Translations under genes and position numbers: made by a program | The notes under the pieces: model-generated | The model's input: only the letters and a program-made list of their open reading frames with translations | What the model was told of the DNA's origin: nothing | The model's database searches: none | Part shown: piece by piece, positions 21,108-34,709 of the stretch | How the letters are laid out: the number at the start of each line of letters is the position of its first letter | Numbering within the stretch: position 1 is the first letter of the stretch | Assembly: GCF_000314895.2 (NCBI RefSeq) | Contig: NZ_CM001773.1 | Span: forward strand, 1,732,512-1,796,511 | DNA: 64,000 nucleotides | Source of the DNA: Providencia sneebia DSM 19967 | GTDB lineage: Bacteria; Pseudomonadota; Gammaproteobacteria; Enterobacterales; Enterobacteriaceae | Direction of reading: 5' to 3'

Positions 21108-21195
21108 GGAGGGGTGGCCGAGCGGCTGAAGGCAGCGGTCTTGAAAACCGCCGATGGGAAACCATCCGAGAGTTCGAATCTCTCCTCCTCCGCCA
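21108..21195 (+). tRNA. serT: tRNA-Ser (anticodon UGA)
   Basis: 88-base class II tRNA beginning GGAGGGGTGGCCGAGCGGC and ending in an encoded CCA. The anticodon loop CTTGAAA gives UGA. It has a long variable arm (GATGGGAAACCATC) and a T arm GAGAGTTCGAATCTCTC. Same position as E. coli serT after tusE. Its 3' end is the insertion site of the island that follows. Confidence 0.96.
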
Positions 21196-21232: not shown

Positions 21233-21265
21233 CCCAAGTAAATCAAGCATTCTAACTAAACCCCA
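21233..21265 (+). repeat. Left flanking direct repeat (attL side)
   Basis: 33 bp that matches 34274-34306 except at three positions. It starts CCCAAGTAAATCAAGCATTC and ends ACTAAACCCCA. It lies 38 bases after the tRNA CCA; the intervening bases contain GTCTTCCAAA-GTCTTCCAAT, an arm-like pair that may come from an earlier insertion. Confidence 0.75.
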
Positions 21266-21312
21266 TTATTCCAACGTCTACTAACGTCTATTGAAAACTA
21301 CCCCCTTTAGGT

Positions 21313-21359: not shown

Positions 21360-22571
21360 ATGAAGCTAACAGTTAAACAAATTGATTCCAGTAAGCCTAA
21401 AGAAAAAGACTACAAACTATCTGATGGTGGTGGACTGTATCTATTGGTTAAAACTAATGGCGGAAAGTATTGGCGGTTAAAATACCGAATCGATGGTAAA
21501 GAGAAACTTTTAGCTATTGGAATTTATCCAACCGTTACACTAGCTGATGCCAGAAGAAAGCGTGATGATGCAAAGAGATTGCTGGCGGATGGAATTGACC
21601 CAAACCAACAACGCAAAGAACAAAAGCAAGCCTCAAAGATTGACAGTGTAAACACCTTTAAAAATATTGCTCTTGAATGGTATGAGGGAAGAAAGGATCG
21701 CTGGTCTGTTGGTTATCGTGATGACATGATGGACGCATTTGAGAAAGACGTCTTTCCTTATATAGGCAATCGCCCAATTGCTGAAATCAAACCAATGGAA
21801 TTACTTGAAGTGCTTTCTATTATGGAAAAGCGCGGAGCAACCGAGAAGCTAAAGAAAGTACGTCAACGTTGTGGCGAGGTATGGAAGTACGCCATTATTA
21901 CTGGTAGGGCAGAGTATAACCCTGCGCCAGATTTAGCCAGTGCCTTTGTACCACATAAGCGTGAGCATTACGCCCACCTCTCAGTAAGTGAATTACCAGA
22001 GTTTCTTTCTTCTATAGATAAGTACATGGGAAGCCAGATTGTAAGAGTGGCATTAAGGGTGCTTATATTAACTGGAGTTCGACCAGGCGAATTGAGAAAG
22101 GCGGAATGGTCAGAAATTAACTTTGATACTGGAGTATGGGAAATACCAGCTGAAAAAATGAAAATGCGCCGACCGCATATTGTGCCACTATCAGAGCAGG
22201 TTATTGATTTACTGAAACAGATACATCCAATCAGTGGCAGCTATCAATATATATTTCCTAGCCGCACCGATTATAGAAAGCACATATCAGATATGGCACT
22301 GAATACGATGATTAGGCGCATGGGCTACAGTGGTAGAGCCACAGGTCACGGTTTCAGGCATACAATGAGCACCATTCTACACGAACAAGGTTATAACACT
22401 GCATGGATTGAGACACAGCTAGCGCACGTTGATAAAAACTCTATTCGTGGAACGTATAACCATGCTCAGTATATTGATGGACGTAGAGAAATGCTTCAAT
22501 GGTACGCTGATTACATGGGGGCATTAGAGAACGGGGATAATGTTGTCCACGGTAATTTCAAACGCGCTTAA
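21360..22571 (+). CDS. P4-type tyrosine integrase
   Basis: Site-specific recombinase of 403 aa that would insert and excise the island at tRNA-Ser. The N-terminal DUF4102 arm-binding domain begins MKLTVKQIDSSKPKEKDYKL and is followed by a SAM-like core-binding domain. The catalytic domain has Arg241 (TGVRPGELR), His330-x-x-Arg333 (HGFRHTMS), a second His in QLAHVD and nucleophile Tyr366 (GTYNHAQY), so it looks intact. The ATG is four bases after an arm-like TACCCCC copy, suggesting autoregulation. A terminator follows the gene. Confidence 0.95.
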   Translation: MKLTVKQIDSSKPKEKDYKLSDGGGLYLLVKTNGGKYWRLKYRIDGKEKLLAIGIYPTVTLADARRKRDDAKRLLADGIDPNQQRKEQKQASKIDSVNTFKNIALEWYEGRKDRWSVGYRDDMMDAFEKDVFPYIGNRPIAEIKPMELLEVLSIMEKRGATEKLKKVRQRCGEVWKYAIITGRAEYNPAPDLASAFVPHKREHYAHLSVSELPEFLSSIDKYMGSQIVRVALRVLILTGVRPGELRKAEWSEINFDTGVWEIPAEKMKMRRPHIVPLSEQVIDLLKQIHPISGSYQYIFPSRTDYRKHISDMALNTMIRRMGYSGRATGHGFRHTMSTILHEQGYNTAWIETQLAHVDKNSIRGTYNHAQYIDGRREMLQWYADYMGALENGDNVVHGNFKRA

Positions 22572-22700: not shown

Positions 22701-22779
22701 GCTATGCCTAGGCTGATCCCCGAAAACTAGTACACCTCTACTAGCTGGCATAGCTCCTACCAAAAGAGGGCTAGAGGTG
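22701..22779 (+). promoter_or_regulatory. Leader hairpin whose loop is complementary to the downstream ribosome binding site
   Basis: GCTATGCC (22701-22708) pairs with GGCATAGC (22747-22754). The enclosed loop contains CACCTCTA (22733-22740), the exact complement of TAGAGGTG (22772-22779), which holds the ribosome binding site of the next gene. This could give translational control or a P4-like antisense immunity arrangement. Inference from pairing only. Confidence 0.5.
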
Positions 22780-23335: not shown

Positions 23336-23608
23336 ATGGTTGATTATGATAAAGAAAGTTGCGCCTCATTTCAGCGTTTATATTCATACTATCATGTAGA
23401 ACAAATGGCTATGTTGTGGTGTGGAATAAAACCTTCGGATTTTGATGAGGTGATTTCTGAGTGTGAATATATAAAAAGAGCCATACCAAAACACCCATTT
23501 ATTGGATGCTTAGAACATCGAGCCATGGCTATAACGTCTGGGTTGCTGAGTTCGGTACAGGTAACAAAGAGATTGAGCAGATTAAAGAACAGACGATTGC
23601 TTTTTTAA
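23336..23608 (+). CDS. Truncated island protein fused out of frame to a primase remnant
   Basis: A 90-aa open frame, MVDYDKESCASFQRLYSYYH... About the first 65 residues look like the start of a small island protein. The tail after about HRAMAIT is probably out-of-frame sequence from the primase gene whose real frame begins near 23506. The most economical reading is a deletion joining the 5' part of one gene to the 3' part of another. Confidence 0.5.
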   Translation: MVDYDKESCASFQRLYSYYHVEQMAMLWCGIKPSDFDEVISECEYIKRAIPKHPFIGCLEHRAMAITSGLLSSVQVTKRLSRLKNRRLLF

Positions 23609-23934
23609 GTACGTATGGAATGAGTCGATTTGCGCCATTGCCCTATGATGAACAATCTTTACCTATTAGAGAACTCGCTGGGTACAGGGTTAAATCAAGT
23701 ACGCATGATGAAGCACCCATACTGTTTTATACATTGCCAACGGTATTTAAGAACGAGATAGCCAAAACGTTCAATACAGATATTTTCTCTGATGCTCTAC
23801 ATAAACTAGGCATTTTAAAGAAACCTGCCAATGAGAAAGGGTATCAAAGCAGAACACCGCGTTTGAAGCATTTAGGTAACATTCAGCAGCGCGCCTACAT
23901 TTTGATGCTTGTTCCTGATGAAGAGGAGGAATGA
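23506..23934 (+). pseudogene. C-terminal remnant of a P4-type primase/helicase (DUF927-like)
   Basis: About 140 residues resembling, from memory, the end of P4-type replication proteins: HGYNVWVAEFGTGNKEIEQI, YGMSRFAPLP, FYTLPTVFKNEIAKTFN and YQSRTPRLKHLGNIQQRAYI are typical of their last domain, and it ends in an acidic tail. The primase, DUF927 core and superfamily 3 helicase are absent, so this copy cannot start replication. It lies immediately before an iteron array that may have been its origin. Confidence 0.65.
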
Positions 23935-23967: not shown

Positions 23968-24344
23968 GTTGTCTCAGTTGTCTCAATAAGGGAATAAAAA
24001 AGGTAACTTATTAATATTTATAGTTATGATGGTTATTTTCTGAGACAACACTGAGACAACCTAAGCCTGTTTTGAGACAACATAAGGTGTTTTTGAGACG
24101 ACACTGAAAAGTTTGGATTATCTCTTGGTAGGTTAAAAAAGCGGTTGAGACAACTGAATTCAACGCTGAGACAACACGTGAATTAATAAATAACCATTGA
24201 AAATCAATTAATTGTAAAAAATAGGTGTGAATAGTCATTAGGTTGAGACAACTCAAAATCGTCAAGTTGTCTCAGAGAAAAATATTTAATCTATCTTAAT
24301 CAATGGGTTGAACTAATTGAGACAACTGAGACGACCGAGACAAC
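23968..24344. repeat. Iteron array, 13 copies of TGAGACAAC (possible satellite origin)
   Basis: The 9-mer TGAGACAAC or its reverse GTTGTCTCA occurs at 23968, 23977, 24041, 24052, 24073, 24094 (GAC variant), 24146, 24167, 24244, 24266, 24318, 24327 (GAC variant) and 24336 (CGA variant). The first two and the last three are directly tandem. No gene overlaps it and it sits just after the primase remnant, the place where P4-like elements keep initiator-binding iterons. The rest of 23935-24469 is AT-rich. Confidence 0.8.
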
Positions 24345-24469
24345 CCCTAATCGCGTATTTAATAAAAAAATATTAGAGTGATGTTTAATATATTTATCTA
24401 GAAATTGCGAAGGTAAAAAAGTTGATTATGATTAATGTTTATTCATTATTTTGAAAATGGGAGATTATT

Positions 24470-25595: not shown

Positions 25596-25769
25596 ATGAC
25601 TAGAACAGAGAAAGGCTTTAAAACAGTTTCCATTGACGGGCAGTTAGTGGCACGTATTGAGAAGTTACGCCAAAAACGTGCGGAAAAAGATTTTTTACTT
25701 AGTGGAGCACCGATGACCCAGATTATTCGAGGGTTATTGAATGAAGCTCTACGTCGTGAGGGGTTCTAA
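25596..25769 (+). CDS. RHH-like small protein (57 aa)
   Basis: MTRTEKGFKTVSIDGQLVAR begins a strand-helix-helix pattern (KTVSIDGQLVARIEKL ... MTQIIRGLLNEALRR) typical of ribbon-helix-helix repressors or antitoxins. The stop overlaps the next start (TAATG), so translation is coupled to the tape-measure-like gene. It may repress its own operon. No partner toxin is recognised. Confidence 0.7.
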   Translation: MTRTEKGFKTVSIDGQLVARIEKLRQKRAEKDFLLSGAPMTQIIRGLLNEALRREGF

Positions 25770-28382
25770 TGGAAAAGTTACAGCAGTTAGCAAGCACCAT
25801 AGCTCAGATTTATGTTGATGGGCTAAAAGCGGAAACGGGAACAACATTAGTAACGTATAGTGCCACGGCGTCATTAATCAATCACACCAAAGCCGCGTTA
25901 GAAGCGACACAGGCTGAACTAGCTAACGCCGAAGCCAACAAGAAACAAGCTGAGTCCTATCAAGCATCAGCGGCACAAATGGTATTAAATGCCAAAGAAG
26001 AAAAAGCAGCCGCACAATCAGCAATTGAACTCGCTAAAGATAAAGTGGCGGCAGCAGATAGCTTGACGATATCGTTAGAAAAGCAGCGAGTAGAGCTAGA
26101 GCAGCAGGTAAAAGTACAAAGACAGATATTAAGAGATGCTAAAGAAACATACAAAATAGCGCCAAAAGATGAAAATTTTCAAGATGTTGTTGTCGCTAGA
26201 AATAAAATGATGGCTACCGAAAAGAAAATACAAGCCATTGGTAATCAGATAGACAAAGAACAAGTTTCCGCATCACAGGCCCTGAAAAAAGCTAAAGAAG
26301 CAGAAATAGCGGCTAGCACAAAAGTAACAGCAGCTACAGCGCTTGAGCAGAAAGCCAAGGCGACACTGGCAACCGCCAATGAAGCAGTTGCTACAGCTAG
26401 CGCAAAAGCGACAGCGGCAACCAAAGCACAAGCAATAGCAATGAATGGCTTACGTGGTGTAATGGCTTTACTTGGTGGGCCTACTGGTTTATTCCTTTTG
26501 GCAGCCGCAGGAGTTTACGCTCTCTATGAGGCAATGACTGATGACACGGCAATAAAAGAATACAACGCTAAAATCGATGAGATGATCACTAAGATTGACT
26601 CTTTAACATCTAAACAGGCGGAAGTAGTTTCTAGAGAGCTTGGCATCAGGATTGCCAAAACAAAAGAAGAATTAGCAAAAAGCGTTGAAGAAGCTAAAAA
26701 GCTAGAGAGTGGCCTTGAGGCCATGAAAGATAAAGAACCCACTTTTAACATACGAAAGTCAATAGAATGGGCTACTAATGAATTAGGTAAATACAATTTA
26801 TTAATAGAGGAAGGGACAAAACGAATTAGAGAGCAAGAAGCGCAGCAGAGGAAGTCTAATCAGACAGTAAAAGATAAAAAAGGTATAGAGAGTGAGCAAG
26901 TAGACGCAATGAACATCTTTAACGATGCCGCTAAAGGTGCTATTGAATCTAATAAGCTACTCGCAAAAACAATGGAGTTGGGTTCTCCAGCGTTAGCAAA
27001 AATGGAAATGGAAGTAGAAGCATTAAAGATTAGCCTTGAAAATGCTGGAATTTCAGGGGATGAAGCCGAAATTCAAATCTCAAATCTAATGAACACACTT
27101 GAAACAGGGAGAATTAATAACTTTGAGTTAATGATTCAGGCTATTGAAGAGGATGTTCAAGGTTTGAAGCTTGAAATGGAAGAGGGCATTGATACAGCTA
27201 TTGAATATCGAGCAGTCACTCAAATGGCTAGAGCAGGTGTGGATGACCCAGATTTACTAAATAGATTAATTGACGGCTTAAAGGAAAAACATAGACTTCA
27301 AAAACAAATATCAGATAGCAACAAGAAAGGCAGTGGCGGCGGCAAAAAGGATAAAGCGGCGGAAGAACTTAAACGCCAACAAAGTGAAGTCGCAGCACTT
27401 AATAAAAGGTTTGAATTACTTAGCACTGGTGTAGCTGATGCCAATAGAGATATGGCAATGTTTGAAGCCGTCCAGAAGCTAGGCGAGAAAGCCACTAAAG
27501 ACCAAAAAGATGCTGTAGCTAAGGAAGCGGCGGAAATATATGACCTTACTCAAAAGGTCAATGATTTCATCCAAGCGCAAGAAGCCACGCCAGAATTAAA
27601 ACTGGCCCGTGAGTTCGGAGAGGAAGCTAAAACTATTCGCCGCATGTTTGATGAGGGATTCATCGATAAAGAAACCTTTACGCGATTAGGCCGTGAAGCA
27701 ACTCAGGCATTTGAGCAGGGCATGTCTGATATTCGCATAGAAACAACCTCAAACAATATCATCACAGATATTGGTGAAAACCGCGCTAAATTCGACCCTA
27801 GCAGCCAAAGCTGGTGGGGCGGCAGCATTAGCAGCATGGACGCCAGCAGCAATAGCCGCTTCAATTGCTACAGGTGGAGCAGCTTCATCGACAGGGTTAG
27901 GTGCTTTCCAAGCATCAATGCTATCTGGTCAAGCTCTCTCTATCGGGTTAGCCGGTGCTAGATACAACGGTGGACCCGTAAAAGGTGGTTCAGCTTATGA
28001 GCTTGGTGAGAAGAATCTGCCAGAATTGATGCAAATAGGAAACAAGCTGATCGGCATACCAGGCAATAATGGGAGGGTGTTCAGTTATGACGAAATAACA
28101 GGCGCACCAGTGATACCCAAAGCGCCTACAGGTAAGCAATATCTGAACCATAAGAATAATGAGCGAGCAATACAGAATAAAGATTTACTGGGTACTGGCA
28201 ATGGTGGCGCTACTCTTCAAGTAATAATTGAAAACCATGTGGCAAATGCCGCTATCGAACCAAGAATGGAAAAAGGGCTTACTGGTGAGGATGTAACGAG
28301 GATTATTATCACTGATATGAATGAGAAAGGACCCATACACCGTTCGGTAATCAACAACACAACAGCAGGGCCTAAGGTATAA
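25769..28382 (+). pseudogene. Truncated and frameshifted phage tail tape-measure-like gene
   Basis: The first frame (25769-27961, 730 aa) is a long Ala/Lys/Glu-rich coiled coil with a hydrophobic helix at ~225-255 (MALLGGPTGLFLLAAAGVYAL), as in the central part of lambda-like tape-measure proteins. The N-terminal part of that family is missing. Near 27740-27850 the reading moves to the next frame and continues to 28382 with the family's C-terminal pattern (AAALAAWTPAAIAASIA ... GARYNGGPVKGG). The join looks like an internal deletion. No other tail gene is present on the island, so a working tail is excluded; an interference role is speculative. Confidence 0.65.
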
Positions 28383-28742: not shown

Positions 28743-28889
28743 TGACTAGCTCCCTAGACAAGATAAATATATTCAGTATTATTGATTTCAACAGTGCCCC
28801 TCATAACCTCTACGCAGAACGGAGAAATCTGGTTTGCGATACGTTTGGGGCTTTCTTTTATCTACTATCTGATAACTTTCCATGCTGCC

Positions 28890-29885
28890 ATGCACCCTCT
28901 AAAACCTCATCTAACGTATTTAGACCAAATAAAAAAGCTAGAAAAACGAGGAATGAGCTTTGAGGATTTACCTCCCGAGCAAGCAGTAAAGAAAATAATG
29001 AATATTGGATATTACAGGCTATCTGGGTATTGGTATCCATTTCGTAAGTTAAAGTTAATCCCACCAGCAGCACCCCACGAAGCTAGACGCGAAGAAGCAT
29101 TCCTTGCAGGTACAACCTTTACAAAGGTATACGCACACTATCTATTTGATGTAAAACTAAGAAGCTCTATTTTTTATGGCATCGAACGAATTGAAACTTA
29201 TCTCAAGGCAAAAATAGCTTACGAACTAGGTAAAGTATCCCCTACGGCCTACAAAGATAAGAATATCATTCAATACAGACATCGCTACCGACATGATACA
29301 TGGTTAGAAAAGTTAGATTCTTTAATAGAGAGAAACAGTGATAAAGATTGTATACGATGGAATTTAGACAAGTATGGGGATATCCCTATATGGGCTATCG
29401 TTGATATTTGGGATTTCGGTACAATGTCTCGCTTCTACGGAATGCTTGAAGATAAATACAAGCATCAAATCTGTAAATCGCTTGGCTTTCTAAAGCCTAA
29501 CTCAGCAAATGTAAGAGATGGGCTGAAAACAGCATTAGAGCATCTTAATACAGTTAGAAACAGGTGCGCCCACCACGCGCGTTTATGGAATACCGATTTT
29601 TCAGACTCAAAAATTAGTATCGATGTGTTAGATAATATTGACTTAGCCGCCTCTCGCTTGTCTCCACAAAGCCCTGAACTATCAAGAATGGCGGGTATCA
29701 TATTTTTAATATGGAGTCTGACCAAGAGAATAAGTTGTAATTCTACATGGCTAGCTTCAGTAAATGATCACTTAGAAAAGCATCAGGGCATTATTCCGTT
29801 TAATTCAATGGGATTTGATAACAACAATATATCAGGATTAAAAAATCTATTGGATAAGGAAGAAGAACAATCAGCCCAATCATAA
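28890..29885 (+). CDS. Abi_2-family (AbiD/AbiF-like) abortive infection protein with HEPN motif
   Basis: 331 aa from the ATG at 28890 (MHPLKPHLTYLDQIKKLEKRG), the usual Abi_2 beginning. Family segments MNIGYYRLSGYWYPF, RIETYLKAKIAY and AIVDIWDFGTMSRFY are clear. The C-terminal TVRNRCAHHARLW holds the R-x4-6-H HEPN ribonuclease motif, which looks intact. Known members stop phage growth by killing or arresting the infected cell. The start is uncertain: no good ribosome binding site precedes 28890 and the frame stays open about 110 bases upstream. Confidence 0.85.
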   Translation: MHPLKPHLTYLDQIKKLEKRGMSFEDLPPEQAVKKIMNIGYYRLSGYWYPFRKLKLIPPAAPHEARREEAFLAGTTFTKVYAHYLFDVKLRSSIFYGIERIETYLKAKIAYELGKVSPTAYKDKNIIQYRHRYRHDTWLEKLDSLIERNSDKDCIRWNLDKYGDIPIWAIVDIWDFGTMSRFYGMLEDKYKHQICKSLGFLKPNSANVRDGLKTALEHLNTVRNRCAHHARLWNTDFSDSKISIDVLDNIDLAASRLSPQSPELSRMAGIIFLIWSLTKRISCNSTWLASVNDHLEKHQGIIPFNSMGFDNNNISGLKNLLDKEEEQSAQS

Positions 29886-29921: not shown

Positions 29922-30060
29922 ACACGTTATGAATGATGATTTTCGGGCACGTTAGCAAAGATAGTTAGATAGTTTTTACACATCGCATAATGGCAGTTTT
30001 TACACACGTTAGACGGAATTATCGGACACGTTAGCGGTTAGTTTTCGGACATCGTAGCAA
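29922..30060. repeat. CACGTTAG-type short repeats
   Basis: CACGTTAG occurs at 29948, 30005 and 30027, with near-copies around 29922 and 30051. Each is preceded by a T-rich stretch (TTTTCGGG, TTTTTACA, TTATCGGA, TTTTCGGA). It opens a gene-free stretch of about 850 bases (29886-30733). No coding potential seen. Confidence 0.6.
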
Positions 30061-30117
30061 GAGTATTCGGAGTCCATAAATAAAGGGTTGAATTAGCGAC
30101 AAATATAGATATTAAAT

Positions 30118-30284
30118 CTTAACAATTCTTAACGTTTTTCTAATGCCAAAATCTTAAGAAATCCTAAGATTATTACTGGTTGGATGTTAACATTTGCTAA
30201 CGTTCAGATGATAACATTTGATAACGTATTTCGGCTAATGCCACCTCACGAAACCTCACGCATTAATCCTAACAAATCCTAACG
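30118..30284. repeat. Cluster of six two-copy direct repeats, 10-bp spacing, each a different word
   Basis: Word pairs at exactly 10-bp spacing: CTTAAC (30118), CTTAAG/CCTAAG (30153), TTAAC/CTAAC (30186), GATAAC (30210), CCTCACG (30244) and AATCCTAAC (30265). The spacers are AT-rich. The geometry matches the arm-like pairs next to the island's integrase (GTCTTCCAAA-GTCTTCCAAT). Non-coding. Confidence 0.7.
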
Positions 30285-30508
30285 TTTTAGACTGATTGAG
30301 ATGGTAGCTAACATGCCGATAAATAGATAATATTTAGTGAAATATCGCACTGCGCATTGATGCCAAAATTGCGCACTAAAACTGCGCGCAGAATTGCGAA
30401 TTCGCAGTTTGAAAATTGCGAACAAAAGTGCGAATTTCGCAGTTGGCCATGAAGTGGGAATGTAGCATTAAAGCCGCTTTCTGTCTGGCTTTGTTCAATG
30501 ATGACCTG

Positions 30509-30672
30509 TTATCAATTGTTATGGTTCATTGTTGAGAAAAGTTAAGGTTGTTCGCAGTTTACTACTACAGAAAACTACAGGTTGAACTTAGTAAAACTTA
30601 GTAATTATTCGCAGTTTGATATGTATCGGAATGTATGGGTAAATTGCGCACTAGATGATAAGTTTTGATAAG
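30509..30672. repeat. Second cluster of 10-bp-spaced two-copy repeats
   Basis: Pairs TTAT (30509), ACTACAG (30564), AACTTAGTAA twice directly (30585-30604), ATGTAT (30621) and TGATAAG (30656). Between the clusters (30345-30450) lie several TTGCG/TGCGCAC and TTCGCAGTT words. Each pair uses its own word with 10-bp spacing. Non-coding. Confidence 0.65.
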
Positions 30673-30733
30673 GTCTCGTGCGCAAGTAAATTACTATCTT
30701 TGATGTTAATAAACGCAATTACGGATGTTGATT

Positions 30734-31105
30734 TTATTTAAAAAAGATGGCGTAAATTCCATAAGCAGCTAAAGTAAGAAATAAGTAAAATACAAATTTA
30801 ACTTTCTTTTGAGTGACCCTTTTATTGATAACGCAAGTTTCATCAAAAAAATAGTTAATAAATTCAGGCTCACTTATTCCAATATCACCGTCATTTAGCT
30901 CAATTGATTCCATATACTTTAAACTGGCTACTTTATCAGTTGAAGAGTTAGTATCATCTAATCTAACTTGGTCATTGATAAAAGCATTCCAAGCCATTAT
31001 CCGAGACATTCTCTCCCCCGAAGTATGGCAAGACTCAATCTCTTGTAGGCGTAAACGATAGGCTTTATTTATTTTTTCAATCCCATAGATTTCAGTATTG
31101 TTCAT
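30734..31105 (-). CDS. Small protein with C-terminal membrane helix, unknown (123 aa)
   Basis: Not recognised. A helical, charged N-terminal ~95 residues (MNNTEIYGIEKINKAYRLRL...) is followed by a basic stretch (NKRVTQKKVK) and one C-terminal membrane helix (FVFYLFLTLAAYGIYAIFF), the layout of a tail-anchored protein. Weak AAGGGA before the ATG. Lies on the minus strand beside an RHH gene. Confidence 0.6.
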   Translation of the reverse strand: MNNTEIYGIEKINKAYRLRLQEIESCHTSGERMSRIMAWNAFINDQVRLDDTNSSTDKVASLKYMESIELNDGDIGISEPEFINYFFDETCVINKRVTQKKVKFVFYLFLTLAAYGIYAIFFK

Positions 31106-31174
31106 TTTGAATCCCTTAAGTTGCTACAAGTAGACAAGTGACAGATGTTTGAGATAAATATTTACTTATAACAA

Positions 31175-31594
31175 TCAGAAACTCAACTTGTTCGAAATAT
31201 CTTTGTGACGCTTCCACGCTGAATAAATATCCTTATCCCACGCTTTACCGCCTTTAGTTTGATATCCAGCCTCATTAATCCGTTCAGCGATAATCCGTCC
31301 GTTATCTATGCCCTCTGATAGCACCAAATTAACCACAGAAACGACAGCAGACTCATTATAGGTATACGGTGGGATATCTGCCTTACCAGCAATTAAAGAT
31401 GCCACCGACGATTCTAGGCGTTCCACCAGCGACAGCATACGAGCATCAGGATTACTGTCTGGGCGGTTTAACTTCTCTTTGATAGCTGAGACTATCCACG
31501 CTGTTTTATCGCTACCAGAGTTCGATACAGCATCATTAAACAGTGCTTGCAGTTCAGCAGGTAAACGAAAGGCAATAAGATTAGATTTACTCAT
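31175..31594 (-). CDS. RHH-like DNA-binding protein (139 aa)
   Basis: The N-terminus MSKSNLIAFRLPAELQALFN ... TAWIVSAIKEKL is an RHH pattern. The C-terminal ~50 residues (NGRIIAERINEAGYQTKGGK then AWDKDIYSAWKRH) resemble the recombinase-type helix found in large serine recombinases and some mobilisation regulators. A perfect palindrome lies 45 bases upstream and is a likely operator. Probable transcriptional regulator of the island; target unknown. Confidence 0.7.
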   Translation of the reverse strand: MSKSNLIAFRLPAELQALFNDAVSNSGSDKTAWIVSAIKEKLNRPDSNPDARMLSLVERLESSVASLIAGKADIPPYTYNESAVVSVVNLVLSEGIDNGRIIAERINEAGYQTKGGKAWDKDIYSAWKRHKDISNKLSF

Positions 31595-31638
31595 GATAAT
31601 AGTCCGTTATTAACTCGATGAGTGCTTATTATATCAGC

Positions 31639-31655
31639 GTATAACGATGTTATAC
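31639..31655. promoter_or_regulatory. Palindromic operator candidate upstream of the RHH gene
   Basis: GTATAACGATGTTATAC is a perfect 7-3-7 inverted repeat 45 bases before the RHH start, and a related TGTATAAC word follows at about 31697. Suits autoregulation. Confidence 0.55.
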
Positions 31656-31789
31656 AGATTAGAAAATGTAAAATTGCTGGTGGATTTAACGAGTAATTGT
31701 ATAACTTAATATAACAAAGTCAGGGTAACTTACTGTAAAACAAGCAAAGCGTATTATTGCGCCTTGTAACTGACTGAATAAATGGCAAA

Positions 31790-31978
31790 GCTCAAATTTG
31801 AGCGCAGTATAATTTTACCAATAGAATCAATCGGCTCATTTTTGAGCCTGTATTTATCAATAGAAACAGGGCCCTCAAAATTGAGGAGGGTTAACGATTG
31901 TGATTATGGCCATAGTCGAAAAGGGTGACAGTTGAAATGTTACCCTTGATGCTGAGGGCGGCTTGAAATGAAGCCCTC
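31790..31978. repeat. Five consecutive short palindromes with AT-rich centres
   Basis: GCTCAAATTTGAGC (31790), GGCTCATTTTTGAGCC (31833), CCTCAAAATTGAGG (31873), AAGGGTGACA/TGTTACCCTT around GTTGAAA (31921-31947) and GAGGGC..AAGCCCTC around a TTGAAATG centre (31954-31978). Stems differ but the centres are alike. They lack T-tracts, so ordinary terminators are unlikely. The whole of 31595-32574 lacks a recognised gene. Confidence 0.65.
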
Positions 31979-32219
31979 ATATCAAAACCACAAATTAGTG
32001 CCTTTAGCCAAAGTAGCTAAGTATTAGCCAATACAGCTAACTATCCAAAAAAACACGGTGTAGTTATTTTGTTATCAAAAAGACTCACAGTAATAACGTA
32101 CCAAAATGGTACTAATATAAACTACGGTGGTACTATGGTGTTGCTATAATGATTGTAAGGTATTCGTTTTGGCATCCACCGAAAAGGCTATATTTTACTG
32201 GATACTCTATCCGCTGAAT

Positions 32220-32472
32220 GTTGACAATTGTTGACATCAGAACCAGACAAAACCAGACATCATGTCAAACAAATTTATAAGTCCAGTCCAAAATTAAATA
32301 GGTACGCAGTAGGTATGTGTTTAATTCTCGCATTTCGCTATAATCAAATAAAATCATGATGTTGTGGAAAAGTACGCAGAATGGTACGCAGCAAAACAAG
32401 GGTAATAAGTTTTGACTAGTCTTGACGGATTTAACTTGGTTGCCATTTTGACGGTTGCCACTCTGGTTGCCA
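32220..32472. repeat. Third cluster of two- and three-copy direct repeats
   Basis: GTTGACA (32220 and 32230), AACCAGACA (32241 and 32251), GTACGCAG (32372 and 32384), TTGAC (32412 and 32422) and GGTTGCCA three times (32438, 32453, 32465). Spacing is 10-15 bp. Each word is different. No coding frame covers them. Confidence 0.7.
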
Positions 32473-32574
32473 GCAAAACAGCATGTTTTATGCTAGTGGA
32501 ATGATGGCTTTGATTGTTCCAATTCAGCACAATCAAGGTATAGCGATAATCACAACACCTTTTGAGGTATAGCC

Positions 32575-32763
32575 ATGTTACAGCGTGAAGTAATAGAATC
32601 CGTTATGATGGAGTTAGCCCACCAGCAAGGGCAATCGCTCAACGGACGCGATAGGTTAGCGATTAGAACAGGTGTAGCCCAAACGATACAGGCTAAAGAA
32701 CGTCACAGACGGAGAATGACAGCACCTACCTACCAATGGACGAAACCAGCACCAAAACGGTGA
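32575..32763 (+). CDS. Possible small island protein (62 aa)
   Basis: Basic small protein MLQREVIESVMMELAHQQGQ... ending PAPKR. A GAGGT lies 11 bases before the ATG. Composition (Gln, Arg, few rare residues) is plausible for a DNA-associated small protein, but no family is recognised and the surrounding DNA is repeat-rich and mostly non-coding. Confidence 0.4.
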   Translation: MLQREVIESVMMELAHQQGQSLNGRDRLAIRTGVAQTIQAKERHRRRMTAPTYQWTKPAPKR

Positions 32764-32830
32764 TGCGAAGATAATCGCAGTGGTCAAATATTAAGCGATA
32801 CAAGAAAAAGGGCATCGGTATGCAGGCTAT

Positions 32831-32914
32831 AGGTTGCCTTGAAATCAAGGGCACCTAAGGCGACTAAATTGGACTCCTTGATATTAAGGAGTCATGAGGC
32901 TCTGAAATCGGAGG
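32831..32914. repeat. Hairpin and direct-repeat group
   Basis: CCTTGAAATCAAGG sits inside a longer imperfect stem at 32831-32856; GACTCCTT-GATATT-AAGGAGTC at 32872-32893 is a perfect 8-bp stem; GAGGCTC occurs twice at 15-bp spacing (about 32896 and 32911) around TGAAATCG. Same TGAAAT/GATATT centres as the palindromes near 31.9 kb. Confidence 0.55.
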
Positions 32915-32959
32915 CTCGTCACTGGTTGGCAATATTCCAATAATGGCCACGAGATAAAA

Positions 32960-32992
32960 GTAACCACTCTGGTAACCACTAAAAGTAACCAC
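32960..32992. repeat. Three copies of GTAACCAC
   Basis: GTAACCACT at 32960 and 32972 and GTAACCAC at 32985, spacing 12 and 13 bp. The spacer ACTCTG also occurs in the GGTTGCCA repeats at 32.45 kb. Confidence 0.65.
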
Positions 32993-33019
32993 AATGCAAA
33001 TAAGCATTGCGATACCCAC

Positions 33020-33035
33020 AGGACAAATTTGTCCT
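33020..33035. repeat. Perfect 16-bp palindrome
   Basis: AGGACAAATTTGTCCT, of the same type as GCTCAAATTTGAGC at 31790. Confidence 0.55.
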
Positions 33036-33132
33036 CTGAATAAATATCAATAAGTTACCGTGATGCAAATATGCGTTACCGATTAAATCAATAGGTTATC
33101 TACTCTGAACATGAATAACCAAAGCTAAAATA

Positions 33133-33264
33133 ACGGTCCTATTACGGTCCGTATAATGTGATTGAACGGCAAGATTACGGCAAGGTTAAACGGGGATGTT
33201 ACGGGGAGGATTAAGCCGATAACGGTAAGGTTACGGTAAGGAATCAGGGCGAGATTACGGCGAG
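33133..33264. repeat. Five consecutive ACGG-type repeat pairs with matched variable parts
   Basis: Pairs at 11-bp spacing: ACGGTCC (33133/33144), ACGGCAAG (33166/33177), ACGGGGA (33190/33201), ACGGTAAGG (33222/33233) and GGCGAG (33248/33259). The second copy is preceded by TTAC or TT. The four or so bases after ACGG change from pair to pair but are the same within a pair. Non-coding: the spacing is not a multiple of three and frames are closed. Confidence 0.75.
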
Positions 33265-33337
33265 GTTTCAAGTGGTCAGTTGTATTTTGATTCCGGCGAT
33301 TTAACGGAATTAAGCATAATCAATAGCTTATAGTTAC

Positions 33338-34183: not shown

Positions 34184-34202
34184 GGGGGTACATTTGGGGG
34201 TA
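34184..34202 (+). repeat. Integrase arm-like pair at the right end
   Basis: GGGGGTA at 34184 and 34196 (12-bp spacing), the same word and spacing as beside the integrase at the left end. Confidence 0.6.
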
Positions 34203-34273
34203 TCTATAAAGTTAGAATTTAAATAATCATTTAATATCAATGAATTGAATGCTATGTATGGTTCTCTCCTCCA

Positions 34274-34306
34274 CCCAAGCAAATCAAGCATTCTGACTAA
34301 ATCCCA
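34274..34306 (+). repeat. Right flanking direct repeat (attR side)
   Basis: 33 bp beginning CCCAAGCAAATCAAGCATTC, matching the left copy except at three positions and preceded by TCTCTCCTCC, a partial copy of the tRNA-Ser 3' end. Marks the right edge of the island. The next 400 bases (34307-34709) hold no recognised gene. Confidence 0.75.
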
Positions 34307-34709
34307 AAATCCCAAAATGTGCTGGGGTATTTACAGCGTACCCAGATATACCCGTAGTTTACCGTCAGTGAAGACGAGAACGATACCGCTGTCCTTTAAG
34401 TTATATGCCCGGCATAAGCAGGGAATTTTTAAGCGTTTTTTGATAATGATACGAACTACCATTGACGTGCATACCAACACTCCGACGATCACGGCTCTCA
34501 ATAATCGTAGTTTGAGTGTGCACAATATTACGTACCACCACCATCCTGATTCCTCTAAGGTGACAAATGAACACATTACCTGTCATCCGAGGTAAAATTG
34601 AATGGTTTGAGCTCGGTACAATACCGAACTCAAACGATATCAGCCGTTAGTTAAAGAAAAGTGTCCAATATATGGGATTCATTTCATTAAAGCGGTATTG
34701 AGTTGTAAA

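Follow-up and report, generated by a model that had tools for sequence, protein, structure and literature searches.

The right end of a 13-kb genomic island in Providencia sneebia DSM 19967 carries a library of short words repeated two or three times at close spacing, and many of these words recur, on the sense strand, inside genes for the small terminase subunit (TerS, gene terS) of phages. From comparison of sequences we consider it likely that the library is an array of pac-like sites that would let many helper phages package the island, itself probably a decayed satellite of the P4 or phage-inducible chromosomal island (PICI) kind inserted in tRNA-Ser. The words, their place in terS, their spacing and strand, a correspondence between word and TerS recognition helix and the presence of other subsets in other loci are observed in the sequences; TerS binding, packaging and transfer we infer from the known roles of TerS and pac, and how the island acquired its sites would be as outlined below. 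Positions refer throughout to the window, the whole 64,000-nucleotide (nt) stretch analysed (NZ_CM001773.1, 1,732,512–1,796,511, forward strand). Loci and genomes used for comparison carry L and G numbers.

A library of spaced word pairs

Exact words repeated at lags of 9–16 were counted in 29941–33265, with low-complexity words removed, and compared with 300 dinucleotide shuffles. This 3.3-kb stretch holds 21 pairs of at least 7 bp against 1.6 in the shuffles (standard deviation, sd, 1.2; maximum 6), 27 pairs of at least 6 bp against 4.9 (sd 2.0, maximum 11) and 13 pairs of 8 bp against 0.4 (maximum 3). Lag 10 is the most common among the 21 pairs (nine pairs), followed by lags 11 (four), 12 and 15 (three each), 13 and 14 (one each). 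In the rest of the window, non-overlapping stretches of 3325 bases have at most five pairs each at lags 9–15, with a median of 2. The repeats reported in a preliminary description of this DNA are thus real: all ten words named there for the region are present, and shuffled controls stay far below the observed number.

Most places in the library use a distinct word of their own. The description of the repeats as two-copy holds for most sites, but two are triples of unequal spacing, GGTTGCCA (15 then 12) and GTAACCAC (12 then 13). The region is also only partly gene-poor, as it is interrupted by three open reading frames (ORFs; 30734–31105 and 31175–31594 on the minus strand, 32575–32763 on the plus strand), which overlap 2 of the 21 pairs. 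The DNA of the second and third of these ORFs is about 91–95% identical in the related loci L024 and L025.

Library words recur in terS genes

The library word ACGGCAAGATTACGGCAAGG, non-coding in the window, lies in relative L024 within a terS-like ORF of 130 amino acids (aa) that covers part of the family profile. An exact scan of eight words in IMG/VR (2.9 million viral contigs; some loci were matched by several words) gave 346 locus-word matches, 131 of which fall inside a terS ORF with the word on the sense strand, while none of the 308 antisense ORFs over scanned words is terS. The share of matches in terS is 9/21 for AATCCTAAC, 23/82 for GTACGCAG, 60/102 for GGTTGCCA, 27/32 for ACGGTAAG, 11/89 for GTAACCAC and 1/9 for CCTCACG. 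Many of these are near-copies: judged by the first 60 residues, distinct terS number 9, 14, 9, 16, 7 and 1 for the six words in the order just given. Another 108 matches lie in other ORFs (54 for GTAACCAC, 27 for GGTTGCCA, 18 for GTACGCAG), and 107 are without a same-strand ORF of 60 aa, some of them in library-like loci and others due to low complexity or chance.

Nine word-bearing ORFs and the ORF of L024 were compared with PHROGs, and all ten match the terS families phrog_51 or phrog_1206. In Pfam, six of them match Terminase_2 and the four phrog_1206 ones have no match. A PDB sequence search with a phrog_51 TerS returned small terminases (3zqp, 4zc3, 2cmp); with a phrog_1206 TerS it returned one irrelevant weak match (E 0.083).

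A BLAST comparison of the whole library, with no words chosen, against 50,697 phage records used a permissive cut-off (E 10) and gave matches in 46 of them. Positions 30389–30442 match terS of five Yersinia phages (E 0.1) and 30144–30170 match terS of Fusobacterium phage phiPaco (E 5); all these genes are phrog_51 terS. Providencia phage PSTCR7lys was matched (E 3e-9) through upstream intergenic DNA and a gene adjoining terL, which is annotated as hypothetical and is a phrog_1206 terS according to PHROGs. The remaining matches are mostly unrelated and weak. When 29930–30080 and 30540–30685 were compared with phages separately, only weak matches were obtained (E about 5–6), none in terS, so that the CGTTAG-type repeats (29940–30060) and AACTTAGTAA have no convincing terS partner. 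The former consist of about five loose TTTTCGGACAYCGTTAGC units in another style than the word pairs, without a terS match, and are perhaps sites of another kind of terminase.

terS genes selected without reference to the words

Among 295 genomes of the host family, hidden Markov model (HMM) searches detected phrog_1206 in 39 and phrog_51 in 108. With two satellite loci left out, 118 terS loci were used; in 117 of them phmmer, given nine terS seeds, identified a terS ORF, and 111 were kept after removal of near-copies. Spaced repeats are dense in these genes (2.05 per kb, 84 of 111 genes with a repeat) compared with neighbouring ORFs (0.58 per kb, 49 of 228), and 98 of the 158 terS repeats start at nt 100–200, just after the helix-turn-helix codons. 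Nine exact triples of related words in these 111 genes are spaced 15/12, and one is spaced 12/13.

The 19 library pairs outside ORFs were compared with a 17-kb reference of terS sites, including the second site of long genes, alongside 300 random pairs that were alike in geometry and composition. For 11 of the 19, no more than 15 of the 300 agree equally well with a terS site; one such library pair is expected. Against HMM-picked terS the sense strand of the 19 pairs matches better in 13 cases and the antisense strand in one, with five ties. A word in or beside terS, as a pac site should have, was found for these 11 pairs and for six of the eight scanned words, and not for the rest. When 29 hand-marked segments were compared with a reference that includes 12 terS chosen because they match, the sense strand was better for 25, tied for 2 and worse for 2.

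The sites of the library are as follows, with fractions giving the agreement with the terS named.

30117–30135, plus strand: TCTTAAC twice (lag 10); 16/19 with the second site of HMM-picked terS L434
30150–30172, plus strand: CTTAAG/CCTAAG; 20/23 with terS of phiPaco
30185–30227, plus strand: TTAAC/CTAAC and TGATAAC twice, same style; weak, 14/19 (reverse complement 16/19) and 16/19 with terS L489
30242–30260, plus strand: CCTCACG twice; 18/19 with terS L360 (scan), 17/18 with HMM-picked terS L465
30265–30285, plus strand: AATCCTAAC twice; 21/21 with terS L034, the pattern being in 9 distinct terS of 21 loci
30352–30434, plus strand: TGCGCA/TGCGAA cluster; BLAST match to terS of the five Yersinia phages (vB_YenM)
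30562–30604, plus strand: ACTACAG twice and AACTTAGTAA twice; no convincing terS, 34 and 57 of 300 random pairs as good
30619–30637, plus strand: TGTATCGG/TGTATGGG pair; moderate, 15/19, with TGTATCGG twice in terS L411/L437
30654–30673, plus strand: TGATAAG twice; 19/20 with HMM-picked prophage terS of G180 (L409/L489)
32161–32191, plus strand: decayed GGTATCCAC pair with terS-like 3′ flank; CCACCGAAAAGGCTAT 16/16 with terS of PSTCR7lys
32219–32259, plus strand: TGTTGACA twice and AACCAGACA twice; 16/19 with HMM-picked terS L458 and 17/19 with HMM-picked terS L455, at nt ~121–126
32299–32391, plus strand: GTACGCAG, one single and one pair; 18/20 with HMM-picked terS L413, also in terS by the scan
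32438–32472, plus strand: GGTTGCCA three times (15/12); word and spacing in terS L188, also in terS of PSTCR7lys and by the scan
32960–32992, plus strand: GTAACCAC three times (12/13); second pair 20/21 with terS L296 (scan), and HMM-picked terS L399 carries GGTAACCA spaced 12 and then 13
33132–33267, plus strand: five ACGG-type pairs at lag 11 (ACGGTCC, ACGGCAAG, ACGGGGA, ACGGTAAGG, GGCGAG)

The GGTATCCAC pair is kept in relatives and is the word of HMM-picked terS L389, L393, L395 and L396. Among the ACGG-type pairs, ACGGCAAG agrees at 21/21 with the terS-like ORF of L024 and ACGGTAAGG at 20/21 with terS L239, ACGGTAAG has the high terS share given above, and ACGGTCC and ACGGGGA themselves are without a terS match. 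At 32896–32917, GAGGCTC occurs twice (lag 15); this pair recurs in relatives, is not terS-like and may be a terminator. Some long phrog_51 terS (e.g. L433, L427, L411) have two repeat sites with different words, at nt ~140–160 and ~330–430, perhaps one per helix-turn-helix.

Recognition helix and word

The residues of the recognition helix go together with the word. EGAIR is accompanied by GTACGCA in 12 of 12 HMM-picked terS, in both phrog_1206 and phrog_51 backgrounds, HGA[VI]N by GTATCCA in 4 of 4, and D[AT]A[IV]R by GTTCGCA in 5 of 5 (on the other strand in L406 and on both strands in L408). Single HMM-picked cases are HATIL with GTAACCA, HVAIM with GTTACCA, HTAIG with GTTTCCA, ESTLR with GTGCGCA and YETII with AAAGTCA. 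To these, scan-found terS add HQAIS with GTTGCCA (54, mostly near-copies) and HAT[IV]L with GTAACCA (11). No clear helix is seen in the examined part of L403 and L416, and L412 has another fold start.

GTACGCA occupies three reading frames (34, 15 and 1 occurrences). Codons were compared between HMM-picked proteins whose helix starts with the same residue; in these pairs, which are not independent of each other, shared residues have an identical codon in 589 of 896 cases at the site (66%) and in 2377 of 5555 elsewhere (43%). Therefore DNA, and not protein alone, seems to be kept. As far as sequences can tell, and for the class of TerS with an N-terminal helix-turn-helix, the word goes with the recognition helix in two TerS families, as would be expected if pac specificity follows TerS. 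For phrog_1206-type TerS the pairings should be EGAIRKR with GGTACGCA, HQAISKR with GGTTGCCA and HATILKR with GTAACCA.

Comparison with integrase arm sites

The preliminary description had read the library as an archive of arm-type sites for many P4-type integrases. Regions upstream of such integrases do carry spaced repeats: a set of 600 nt upstream (+60 nt) of 28 P4-type integrases, taken from 30 loci (L507–L536) with the window's own left out, amounts to 18.4 kb and contains 36 of them, many of which have lag 12. However, none of the 19 library pairs finds a match there that is as rare as one in 5% of random pairs, and the words match terS; we now give this reading practically no credence. 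What survives of it is an archive of sites for many proteins of other mobile elements, with TerS as the protein (11 of 19 pairs at the terS site). The geometry likened to that of integrase arm repeats is shared in spacing, but the words differ. The GGGGGTA repeats noted at the island ends are real (21322, 34184, 34196), but unlike the library words. Two of the functions suggested earlier remain live, namely decoys, and sites through which other elements could mobilise the island in trans.

Repeats of P4-type integrases, often at lag 12 near the start codon, include TGCGGGTA, GAGTATA and TGAGTATA. They are likely arm sites, with words varying between integrases.

Related loci and the origin of the sites

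Library-like DNA occurs in L024 and L504 (same genus), in L025 and in IMG/VR loci such as L035, L037 and L038; two stretches taken from related loci had no counterpart in complete E. coli genomes. L024 encodes AlpA and Ash proteins. A tape-measure gene is present in L139 and, together with a long alpha-type primase, in L037 and L105, while L315 has an integrase and a primase. The subset of words changes between loci: L139 and L105 carry GTACGCAG, GGTTCGCA, GGTATCCA, GTAACCA, GGTTTCC and GGTTGCCA, and L315 a further mix. At the first site, whose flanks align, the window has TCTTAAC twice and L035, L037, L038, L047, L053 and L054 have TCCTAAC twice. The second site is CCTAAG twice in L025, L038 and L054, and ACTAAG twice in L037.

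In L024 and L504 the 130-aa terS-like ORF occupies the place of the first site. Since two relatives carry such an ORF at the same place, the sites probably derive from terS genes. A terS-like gene of G133 (= L506, another genus), 67% identical over 306 bp to the ORF of L024/L504, has 8 stops within its HMM match and an intact site.

Library fragments, including the CCTCACG pair, also lie on a Proteus mirabilis plasmid typed as conjugative (NZ_CP137087; locus L033, 7970–8828). By eye, an ORF at the end of L105 (13426–14103) seems to be chloramphenicol-acetyltransferase-like.

The island that carries the library

The features of the island and of its integration site are listed here.

21108–21195, plus strand: tRNA-Ser(tga), integration site (ARAGORN, Rfam)
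21360–22571, plus strand: P4-type integrase of the island (Pfam Arm-DNA-bind_3, Phage_int_M, Phage_integrase)
22701–22769, plus strand: int-alpA RNA (Rfam RF02996, 47.8 bits)
23506–23934, plus strand: alpha-type primase, C-terminal remnant (phrog_1139 positions 770–893 of 895)
25769–27961, plus strand: tail tape-measure-like gene (phrog_1107, 1.9e-31)
28782–29885, plus strand: Abi_2-family, abortive-infection-like gene (PF07751, 4e-50)
34184–34202, plus strand: GGGGGTA arm-like repeat of the island's integrase, right end
34262–34320, plus strand: probable attR, which repeats the 3′ end of the tRNA and the bases after it (86% direct repeat of 21233–21274, plus TCTCTCCTCC; presumed boundary)

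As in a satellite, the integrase lies at a tRNA gene with flanking att repeats, whose boundary is deduced. The int-alpA RNA is in the window and an AlpA protein in relative L024; none of the window ORFs tested matches AlpA in Pfam. Long forms of the primase, of which the window has only the C-terminal fragment, are found in L105, L037 and L315. No capsid, portal or terminase gene was found by Pfam and PHROGs among the island ORFs scanned, which are not all of its ORFs.

Beside an alpha-type primase, tail tape-measure-like genes (phrog_1107, TMP_3, phrog_2276) lie at 25769–28382 of the window, 7854–10568 of L105, 5486–7888 of L037 and 3–1691 of L139, and L105 has in addition a tail-completion/neck-like gene; no head gene is among the ORFs tested of these four elements. 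As to what a tape measure does in a satellite, hijacking of tails or interference with them are guesses. Many TGAGACAAC/GTTGTCTCA repeats fill 24045–24345, and L105 has TGAACCAAC repeats; to judge by resemblance, the TGAGACAAC/GTTGTCTCA repeats may be iterons at which the alpha-type primase initiates replication.

Proposed function and alternatives

We propose that each pair or triple would be the word read by one kind of phage TerS in its own terS, downstream of the helix-turn-helix codons. The TerS of a growing phage would bind the matching word of the satellite, mistaking the satellite copy for its own start signal, and would bring TerL for headful packaging of the excised and replicated satellite. 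With many words, the satellite could be packaged by many unrelated helpers.

The same evidence linking sites with TerS would fit decoys, that is, an array that captures the TerS of infecting phages and delays their packaging, which would protect the host or give the satellite an advantage, with no role in satellite packaging. The island does carry an Abi_2-like gene, and some satellites are reported to carry anti-phage systems (PMC11364771). However, the matched sites lie mostly in one orientation, as they do in terS, and titration needs none; one to three copies per word are few for titration, and satellites are reported to use cis packaging sites (PMC6092414). TerS titration as the only function is the main rival and in our view an unlikely one; it could coexist with a role in packaging.

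The library might also consist of scars, remnants of terS genes captured in succession and without present function. Both relatives with the terS-like ORF in the library, the G133/L506 gene that keeps its site despite 8 stops, and the terS-like flank persisting beside the decayed GGTATCCAC pair speak for this explanation. Yet most matched sites are terS-like over ~20–35 bp only, and at some orthologous sites (others are mixed) both copies changed together, which, like the exact spacing, is unexpected of decay. We regard scars without function as quite improbable.

Several observations weigh against an array of packaging sites. Eight of the 19 pairs fail in the comparison with terS sites (ACTACAG, AACTTAGTAA, both GGTTGCCA pairs, GAGGCTC, the second GTAACCAC pair, ACGGTCC and ACGGGGA); only GGTTGCCA (PSTCR7lys, scans) and GTAACCAC (L296, L399) among them have another terS partner, and about a third of library pairs have none. 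In the scan, 0 of 6 matches of AACCAGACA and 0 of 5 of ACTTAGTAA are in terS, and none of 20 genome-contig matches of AACCAGACA is in terS as judged by eye, with no HMM. TGATAAG with a free spacer was found in 6 genomes other than the host's own among 295 of the order, never in terS (its reversed-word control in 2 of 295, none in terS). The terS of L401 (EGTIR) is without GTACGCA. Copies within a site are mixed at the first site of L025 (TCTTAAC with TCCTAAC) and at the second site (CTTAAG with CCTAAG) of the window, L035, L047 and L053. The window element has lost most of its primase, and HMM searches of the genome to which the window belongs found neither phrog_51 nor phrog_1206. Finally, the DNA-binding domain of SF6 TerS is reported, in a passage of PMC4737164, to bind pac without sequence preference.

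A pac-like array could, in a more tentative extension, be a heritable archive of helper packaging signals: segments of terS would have been captured, all but the words would have decayed, and the words would be revised as TerS specificities shift. TerS proteins would follow a readable code, the recognition helix of the N-terminal helix-turn-helix specifying the word repeated in their own gene. Because packaging is directional and the matched sites at the right end point the same way, the array might in addition cause lateral transduction of adjoining chromosomal DNA before the island is excised. If the packaging array is true, it would explain how one satellite uses many helpers, whose range would be readable from sequence, and a helix-word code would predict pac sites of uncharacterised phages.

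Comparison with known systems

The island resembles P4-like satellites in its P4-type integrase, int-alpA RNA and alpha-type primase (here a remnant), and in the AlpA and Ash of L024, and differs from them in its tape-measure genes and site array; a P2-type cos, sid and psu did not turn up in the ORFs scanned, where no search by name was made. Some Staphylococcus aureus pathogenicity islands (SaPIs) encode a terS and have a pac of their own, and relative L024 is similar in having a terS-like ORF that includes its site; in contrast to SaPIs, no terS is among the ORFs scanned of the window island, and its sites suit the TerS of other phages. In phage-inducible chromosomal minimalist islands (PICMIs), packaging is likewise said to depend only on a DNA motif (PMC11389934), but the cos or pac site of the helper could not be identified there, as stated in part of PMC10803314. 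The phages P22, with pac within terS, and SPP1, with direct repeats at the start of pac, are similar in these respects (according to passages of PMC9611059 and PMC4737164) and differ in having single phage sites. Passages of two reviews describe pac sites as often unknown and TerS recognition as unsolved (PMC11389934, PMC9611059). In a single array, recognition words are indicated for several groups of TerS, together with the correspondence between helix and word.

We recognised no description of packaging-site arrays for many helpers in the open-licence literature, judged by titles and the beginnings of abstracts, which is weak evidence of absence. The nearest precedent is provided by PICIs with a helper cos, such as EcCICFT073, in which a copied packaging site is described as letting the helper terminase package the satellite. 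Both of the cos sites that EcCICFT073 carries are reported to work with lambda and phi80, and SaPIbov4 is said to have two putative cos sites (PMC6092414). Where EcCICFT073 has two cos of one lambda-like kind, the library has about a dozen words with a terS partner, for TerS of the families phrog_51 and phrog_1206, and its sites, among which cosN was not sought, look like pac, lying inside terS.

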